Positions 1 to 3,865 of a DNA stretch of 6,116 nt are shown in pieces (position 1 is the first letter of the stretch; every line of letters begins with the position of its first letter). The notes under the pieces are model-generated. The model was not told where the DNA came from. It made no database searches and was given only the letters and a program-made list of their open reading frames with translations. A program made the translations under genes and the position numbers. The DNA comes from a bacterium (lineage in GTDB: Bacteria > NPL-UPA2 > JAGMAN01), in assembly GCA_023130215.1 (NCBI GenBank), contig JAGMAN010000090.1, forward strand, positions 1-6,116, written 5' to 3'.

Positions 1-216
1 CCCCATACAGGTATTAAAGAGAGTAACAAGGAGCTTCTTCCCTCGAAAATGGTGCAGTCCTACCAGGCAACCGAGAGGAATTGCTACTATGGAAGAGAGG
101 ATTAAAGCAGTCCCGGAGATAATCAAAGAGCGCAAAACAATGTGATGGATACCGGAATTAGGGTCAAAAATTAGCCTGAGAGCCTCAAGGAATATTGGCC
201 CAATACCTTCTTCCAT
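1..216 (-). CDS. tupB: Tungstate ABC transporter permease TupB, N-terminal part (cut by window edge)
   Basis: This is the inner-membrane permease of a tungstate ABC importer; with the lipoprotein TupA and an ATPase it would carry tungstate into the cytoplasm. The reading frame stays open for 72 codons from the ATG at 216 to the window edge. It begins MEEGIGPIFLEALRLIF and continues with HHIVLRSLIISGTALILSS and VAIPLGCLVGL. This is the characteristic N-terminus of TupB/ModB-like permeases: a short amphipathic start, then a first hydrophobic membrane segment at about residues 26-55. The stop codon of tupA (219-217) is followed at once by this ATG, so the two are cotranscribed and probably translationally coupled. 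A purine-rich stretch inside the end of tupA (AGAGGATAAG on the minus strand) can serve as its ribosome binding site. The family call rests on the N-terminus and on the neighbour. A general molybdate/sulfate-type permease is the alternative, but the TupA partner favours tungstate. Confidence 0.85.
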   Translation of the reverse strand, partial: MEEGIGPIFLEALRLIFDPNSGIHHIVLRSLIISGTALILSSIVAIPLGCLVGLHHFRGKKLLVTLFNTCMG

Positions 217-1035
217 TTACTTATCCTCTAAAGGAATAAAAAGGGACTGCCCCCATCGCTTTTTCCCGAAATCTCCGATTATTCTTTTGCCCTCAGATGA
301 ATTAAGGAATTCAACTAACTTCTTAGCCTTAGGATAATGGACATGAGGGAACTTCTCAGGATTTGCAATAATTAGAGAATAGGGATTATAAAGGAGAGCG
401 TCTTTCTTTGAGTAAAGGAAGCATAGATTTAGACGCGGCTTAAGGGCAAGGAAAGTTCCTTTATCGCTAAGGGTGTAAGCACCAAGTTCACTTGTTAGGC
501 GCAGGGTCCCGGCCATTCCCTGACAGCTCTGGCGATACCAGGTTCCAATTGGGACGATTGCCGCCTCTTTCCATAACTGCTTCTCTTTGTGAAAAGTTCC
601 TGAGTTATCTCCCCGGGAGACAAAGGGCACTTTCTTTCCATAAATTTTCTTTACCGCCTCAAGGACTGAGCTTGACTCTCTTATTTCAGCCGGGTCTGAA
701 GTGGGACCCACCAGAACAAAATAGTTATACATAACCGTTGTCCGTTCTATACCATAGTTAGAAGATACAAGCTCTTTCTCCAGGCAAGGGGCGTGAACCA
801 GGATGGCATCGCAGTCACCACAGCGGGCAAGTCCAAGAGCTTTTCCGGTTCCAACTGCTAAAACATCTACCTTAACTCCGGTTTTTTCCTGGAATCGAGT
901 CAGCAGAACTTCAAGCAATCCGGAGTTATAACAGCTGGTAGTGGTGGCAAGACGGAGACGTTCCCCCTTAGCACGGACACAGCCGCTAATGGCCATTAAG
1001 GAAATGGCCAGGGCGAGAACAAAATTTCTCTTCAC
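217..1035 (-). CDS. tupA: Tungstate-binding lipoprotein TupA (ABC transporter substrate-binding protein)
   Basis: Extracytoplasmic solute-binding protein that captures tungstate for the TupBC importer. From GTG 1035 it is 272 aa. Residues 1-18 form a lipoprotein signal peptide (basic KRN, hydrophobic FVLALAISLMA, lipobox ISG|C, lipidated Cys19). Oxyanion-site hallmarks of TupA follow: TTTS at 31-34 followed by SGLL, VGTGKAL, LVHAP, MYNYFVLVGP, SRGDNSGT with Arg141, a QGM..TL segment, and AYTLSDKGT. Length fits the family. Start choice: the same frame is open to ATG 1071, but neither start has a good ribosome site. The segment between them is a conserved element found again in non-coding DNA at 3824-3850. 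The likely transcription start also falls near 1071, and GTG gives a clean signal peptide. Odd: six cysteines in the mature protein beyond the lipidated one (35, 72, 75, 84, 171, 205), including a CGDC motif. Tungstate over molybdate specificity is inferred from family resemblance. Confidence 0.9.
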   Translation of the reverse strand: MKRNFVLALAISLMAISGCVRAKGERLRLATTTSCYNSGLLEVLLTRFQEKTGVKVDVLAVGTGKALGLARCGDCDAILVHAPCLEKELVSSNYGIERTTVMYNYFVLVGPTSDPAEIRESSSVLEAVKKIYGKKVPFVSRGDNSGTFHKEKQLWKEAAIVPIGTWYRQSCQGMAGTLRLTSELGAYTLSDKGTFLALKPRLNLCFLYSKKDALLYNPYSLIIANPEKFPHVHYPKAKKLVEFLNSSEGKRIIGDFGKKRWGQSLFIPLEDK

Positions 1036-1065
1036 GGTGCCGATTCTCAGGCAGTGCTGCTTCGC
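1034..1065 (-). promoter_or_regulatory. Candidate structured leader element, copy 1 (before tupA)
   Basis: On the minus strand this reads GCGAAGCAGCACTGCC, then an 8-nt spacer TGAGAATC, then GGCACCGT. It matches the copy before mobA (3824-3850) at 23 of 24 conserved positions; only the spacer length and sequence differ. A hairpin can form: AC (1055-1054) plus TGCC (1053-1050) pair with GGCA (1041-1038) and GT (1035-1034), leaving a CC bulge (1037-1036) and an 8-nt loop. The GT of the 3' strand belongs to the proposed GTG start codon of tupA, so the fold would bury the start codon. An extended -10 box ends 12 nt upstream of the element, placing it at the 5' end of the mRNA. Function as a cis-regulatory RNA is inference. 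A DNA operator is less likely because the half-site spacing differs by 5 bp, about half a helical turn, between copies. Confidence 0.6.
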
Positions 1066-1077
1066 CAGCATGGGACT

Positions 1078-1086
1078 ATTTTAACA
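1078..1086 (-). promoter_or_regulatory. Extended -10 promoter box for tupAB
   Basis: On the minus strand TGTTAAAAT fits the extended -10 form TGnTATAAT with a 5/6 hexamer (TAAAAT at 1083-1078). The position 17 bp upstream holds only a weak -35 (TTTATT at 1106-1101), which an extended -10 can tolerate. Transcription would begin near 1071, just ahead of the conserved leader element and too close to ATG 1071 to leave room for a ribosome site there. Inferred from sequence only. Confidence 0.4.
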
Positions 1087-1119
1087 CAGCTTCGGCTGGA
1101 AATAAAGCGCCAAAGAAGG

Positions 1120-3819: not shown

Positions 3820-3823
3820 TACA

Positions 3824-3850
3824 GCGAAGCAGTACTGCCACTGGCACCGT
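3824..3850 (+). promoter_or_regulatory. Candidate structured leader element, copy 2 (before mobA)
   Basis: It begins 5 nt after the cysK stop codon and reads GCGAAGCAGTACTGCC, then ACT, then GGCACCGT. It shares 23 of 24 non-spacer bases with the copy before tupA. Predicted pairing: AC (3834-3835) plus TGCC (3836-3839) with GGCA (3843-3846) and GT (3849-3850), with a 3-nt loop and a CC bulge (3847-3848). The element ends 24 nt before the mobA GTG. No run of U follows, so it is not an intrinsic terminator. The mobA ribosome site is not part of the hairpin, so control here may differ from that at tupA. A role in sensing Mo/W or the cofactor is inferred from the shared pathway of both downstream genes. 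A dispersed genomic repeat is the main alternative. Confidence 0.6.
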
Positions 3851-3865
3851 ACTTTGAATAGATGA

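Follow-up and report, generated by a model that had tools for sequence, protein, structure and literature searches.

Does the palindrome at the start of a tungstate uptake gene serve as a regulatory switch for that gene, or did it reach this position in another way? The window that we analyzed (6,116 nt) is an entire contig, C127, of a draft genome of 1.01 Mb that comprises 136 contigs and is ~90% complete. Its minus strand carries a tupA-like gene (217..1071) for the substrate-binding lipoprotein of a tungstate ABC transporter, with the lipobox AISGC and a match to PF12849 (1.8e-31). The best PDB match of the protein is the tungstate-binding protein 3lr1 (1.3e-66), and its score against the NCBIfam TupA model NF041772 is 192 bits, below the model cut-off of 400. 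The 5' part of a further gene on the same strand (1..216, open frame MEEGIGPIFLEALRLIF...) abuts the tupA stop; the 72-aa fragment that it encodes gave no match in a Pfam search, and operon context indicates that it is probably the TupB permease. Divergent from tupA are HcyBio, NIL-ferredoxin, cysteine synthase, mobA and moaA. The longest tupA frame begins at ATG 1071, with GTG 1035 in the same frame, and between them lies a 34-bp palindrome, CGGTGCCGATTCTCAGGCAGTGCTGCTTCGCCAG (1035..1068, plus strand), which family matches and site reconstruction define as a copy of a genus-specific repeat. A sequence-only reading had seen in this palindrome a hairpin that hides the GTG and turns tungstate uptake on and off. 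We have good confidence in a different account, namely that the element is a mobile MITE-like palindrome inserted at the original start of tupA and not an evolved tungstate switch.

The core of the element has 13 matches in the genome against 0 in a reversed control, which shows that the element noted earlier at GTG 1035 is real. With a family model derived from 11 copies, we obtained 17, 50 and 44 matches (E<=0.1) in three genomes of the genus (G000, which is this genome, G001 and G002, respectively) and 0 in two relatives from the order and four from the phylum; among the genomes tested, the repeat is restricted to the genus. Full copies have the form TACGGTGAAACACGGTGAARCAGTGC...GCAGTACTGCTTCGCTGTA with inverted ends, and these terminal inverted repeats, TACGGTGAA...TTCGCTGTA, are degenerate in the tupA copy, a short one that reaches only 26 bits against the family model. 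The dinucleotides at the two ends are concordant in 47 of the 55 copies where they are definable (42 TA/TA, 3 TG/TG and 2 CA/CA), a level that 0 of 20,000 permutations reach. The five non-TA pairs, to which the tupA copy (CA/CA) belongs, are direct and not complementary repeats, as expected for a 2-bp target duplication. Additionally, the sites that two G001 copies (L082 and L087) occupy are empty in this genome.

Longer copies are mosaics in which short modules are interchangeable. Modules such as CGGTGAAA, CCGCAAAG, CAGCCGAAG, GTGCCGATTCTCAGG and GTGCTGCTTCGCTG meet at CA/TA dinucleotides and vary in number and order (L203-L242, L062-L091), an arrangement suggestive of insertion of one module into another. 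Several right ends (L074, L077, L021, L069 and L081) run straight into TAAGGAG or TGAGGAG, which places them immediately ahead of a Shine-Dalgarno-like sequence; a target preference or the use of the repeat as a 5' UTR are possible reasons. Searches of the draft genus genomes found no DDE_3 transposase, and the single Y1_Tnp gene in the genus set, in G001, has no repeat copy within the surrounding 3 kb, leaving the family with no linked transposase of either kind in these drafts.

Copies of the repeat occur before, after and inside unrelated genes. The window itself holds a second copy (3820..3851, minus strand, TA...TA) between the cysK stop, which it follows immediately, and mobA. Elsewhere in this genome, a DegT/DnrJ/EryC1-type aminotransferase gene (L086:992-2221, contig C91) contains an in-frame copy that contributes 37 extra residues, which fall exactly between adjacent residues of 7b0d; the gap at this place is shorter for G001. 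The insertion adjoins the conserved AQAHGA motif. An RNA 2',3'-cyclic phosphodiesterase gene in G001 likewise has an in-frame copy inside it, and in a MEMO (AmmeMemoSam_B) - AMMECR1 (AmmeMemoSam_A) open frame of G001 (L082:608-2143) an in-frame copy lies between the domains, while the flanks of this copy are found in G000 without the repeat.

The tupA copy has the same hallmarks at closer range. At either end it has a CA, as a 2-bp direct repeat: one copy at 1033-1034, the other at 1069-1070. The latter is, on the opposite strand, the TG of ATG 1071 (1069..1071, minus strand), which is thus one copy of the target duplication; GTG 1035 (1033..1035, minus strand), a second in-frame start candidate on the basis of the junction sequence and homologue N-termini, consists of the last G of the element and the other TG of the duplication. 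In gene orientation the element encodes LAKQHCLRIGT plus the G of GTG. Deleting 36 bp, the element and one CA, restores AGTCCC-ATG-AAG-AGA (MKRNFVLALAISLMAISGC), and the reconstructed empty site reads ...TGTTAAAATAGTCCC-ATG-AAG-AGA-AAT-TTT. This restoration of an ATG start had escaped the sequence-only reading, which had asked whether the residues before KRNF are conserved in orthologues. Residues 1-12 are not conserved: in TupA homologues the alignment sets in at about residue 13, and several of them have a start codon at most two residues from query residue 13 with little or nothing homologous upstream. Because removal of the element restores an ATG at the point where homologues start, ATG 1071 is probably the original start codon, a view with which the promoter model described below agrees. 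GTG 1035 then probably arose as a side effect of the insertion, and the 12 residues that separate the two codons would be repeat sequence read in frame. A 2-bp duplication at one site is by itself weak evidence of insertion. Neither tupA nor the neighboring HcyBio gene is carried by any of the congeners searched, so the congeners offer no empty counterpart of the tupA site; comparison of the tupA DNA with congeners returned only repeat copies and a 31-base match to the promoter region, and the closest TupA relative among GTDB contigs, at 46% identity, is too distant for DNA comparison.

We propose that the element at 1033-1070 is a mobile, non-coding palindromic repeat of MITE-like kind that would have entered a CA/TG dinucleotide within or immediately behind the original tupA ATG and duplicated the two bases. 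A 36-bp stop-free insertion would have kept the ATG at the predicted transcription start in frame and added 12 repeat-encoded residues ahead of MKRNFVLALAISLMAISGC, while a GTG would have arisen at the other junction. Translation of tupA could then begin at the 5'-terminal ATG, giving a longer signal-peptide n-region, at GTG 1035 behind a 36-nt leader, or at both; the mature lipoprotein should be the same for either start because cleavage occurs at the lipobox Cys. We regard the element as, in all likelihood, an insertion that tupA tolerates, and we infer that it is without regulatory effect on the gene.

Transcription of tupA most likely starts at 1071, as predicted by a sigma-70-type promoter model that was trained on 104 leaders of this genome with the window left out. 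The learned promoter is TTGACA-17-TGnTATAAT, and in a 236-kb genome sample the regions upstream of genes show clear enrichment of TGnTAnnnT and TTGACA-spaced motifs. The extended -10 TGTTAAAAT (1078..1086, minus strand), the predicted tupA promoter, is the top-scoring site in the 194 nt upstream of GTG 1035; its score of 8.42 beats the 95% level of shuffle maxima (7.82; median 4.85) but not the 99% level (8.83). A -35-like TTTATT 17 nt upstream of it is weak. The 9-mer itself is neither rare nor enriched (genome count 18 versus 16 for the reversed control), and the weight given to the box comes only from the promoter model. The predicted +1, ~7 nt downstream of the extended -10, is the A of ATG 1071, and the start near 1071 that had been read from this box by eye accordingly stands as a prediction. 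As a separate observation, TTTCAGCCGAAGCTGTGnTAAAATA (window 1077-1107) joins a CAGC-CGAA-GCTG palindrome to the extended -10 and recurs with 90% identity at L253:1501-1531 (G001, contig C140), upstream of an unrelated gene for a spermidine-synthase-like membrane protein.

This placement of the promoter bears on the choice between the two start codons. We assign somewhat less than an even chance to leaderless translation, in which tupA would be read from the 5'-terminal AUG 1071, the 12 residues would extend the n-region and GTG 1035 would go unused. ATG 1071 lies 6 nt past the end of the -10, it lacks a Shine-Dalgarno sequence both as the site now stands and in the reconstructed empty site, and the insertion has left the frame intact. 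Most genes in the genome have a Shine-Dalgarno sequence, and predicted leaders are mostly ~10 to 130 nt long. Among the 45 genes that lack one, 6 of the 7 extended -10 matches within 40 nt sit 4-9 nt before the start (tupA counts among the six), so a few leaderless genes are likely. Such genes nevertheless appear rare (6 of 634, with gene starts called by a simple script), TupA homologues begin at residue 13, and GTG 1035 has a GAG at 10 nt, although a match of this kind is expected in 47% of random 20-mers.

The odds also fall a little short of even for GTG 1035 as the only start, with transcription from 1071 or from farther upstream and the repeat merely 5' UTR. Here the homologue starts near residue 13 fit directly, and the earlier proposal that this GTG opens the lipoprotein signal peptide is plausible; a 36-nt leader is within the usual range for the genome, and GTG is an accepted start codon (83 of 634 genes). 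The chance-level Shine-Dalgarno match and the competition that would come from an in-frame 5'-terminal AUG detract from this reading. A promoter farther upstream, with transcription from ~1158 or 1149 and a leader of ~115-125 nt, is unlikely: the candidates TTGCCA-16-TAGCATTTT (6.26) and TTGACC-17-CACGAATAT (4.76) both score lower than the site at 1078-1086 and lie inside the shuffle range.

The switch itself was addressed by folding runs with several TSS positions, several 3' ends and shuffled leaders. The predicted leader fold consists of two 4-5-bp hairpins whose stability is no greater than that of shuffles (z +0.45). In transcripts from 1071, opening of the GTG region costs 8.9 kcal/mol versus a shuffled-leader median of 11.5, and the region is as hard or harder to open in 84% of the shuffled leaders; the start region is not paired more than expected, and occlusion of the start codon by a hairpin, as once proposed, is not supported. 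An Rfam search of the window returned no riboswitch or other RNA family match, even at E up to 1, and a scan for a terminator or attenuator found none. A hairpin in a 36-nt untranslated leader that hides GTG 1035 and lets tungstate or another signal toggle tupA translation is consequently most improbable, for although the predicted TSS at 1071, the homologue starts and a leader made up wholly of the element would suit such a device, these folding values, the empty Rfam search and the presence of the same element near and inside many unrelated genes, with none in other members of the phylum, all speak against it. The folding predictions would be compatible with hairpins from the insertion that mildly affect tupA expression or mRNA stability.

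Insertion at the original start thus remains our preferred account, and it implies that what looks like a regulatory leader can be the debris of an insertion. tupA would be a clean case of a mobile palindrome duplicating part of a start codon and lengthening a signal peptide in frame, and the likely annotation is corrected, with ATG 1071 probably the ancestral start followed by 12 inserted residues. We also entertain, as a rather doubtful generalization, that genus-specific mosaic palindromes nest in one another and in genes at YR dinucleotides with 2-bp duplications, and that the tupA start was split in this way into two in-frame starts, the 5'-terminal ATG and an internal GTG, that give two signal-peptide forms. 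The repeat family merits its own description: it makes 2-bp YR duplications, has copies that lie in frame in conserved genes, and is so far without a linked DDE_3 or Y1 transposase.

Several known systems invite comparison. The Moco/Tuco riboswitch is an RNA that controls molybdenum and tungsten genes (PMC2408646); unlike it, the tupA window has no covariance-model match in Rfam. REP/BIME sequences with RAYT (Y1) transposases are short, high-copy, palindromic and modular (PMC2817692, PMC3733652), and to that extent the genus repeats resemble them. The latter differ in that they also occur inside genes and are flanked by a duplication; a REP-type conserved tetranucleotide head is not seen in the aligned copies, and the one Y1_Tnp gene, that of G001, is not linked to the repeat. 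Bacterial MITEs with TA ends (Correia/NEMIS, ERIC and RUP) are non-autonomous and mostly intergenic, with terminal inverted repeats and target duplication (PMC2229807). The genus repeats share with them dispersed near-identical copies, terminal inverted repeats, target duplication and empty sites, but they are shorter, consist of interchangeable modules, have a 2-bp duplication of TA, TG or CA, and their genomes show no IS with a DDE_3 transposase. Rickettsia palindromic elements (RPE) are genus-confined small palindromic repeats that also lie in frame inside conserved protein genes (PMC2229807, PMC10969869), and our repeats are likewise small, confined to one genus and present in frame in the DegT, cyclic phosphodiesterase and MEMO-AMMECR1 genes. 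RPEs belong to a different organism and measure ~105-150 bp, while the genus repeats are mostly ~30-85 bp and mosaic; the two are likened by behavior only. By that measure, the closest known kind would be small palindromic insertions, MITE/RPE-like, that are joined in frame to genes.
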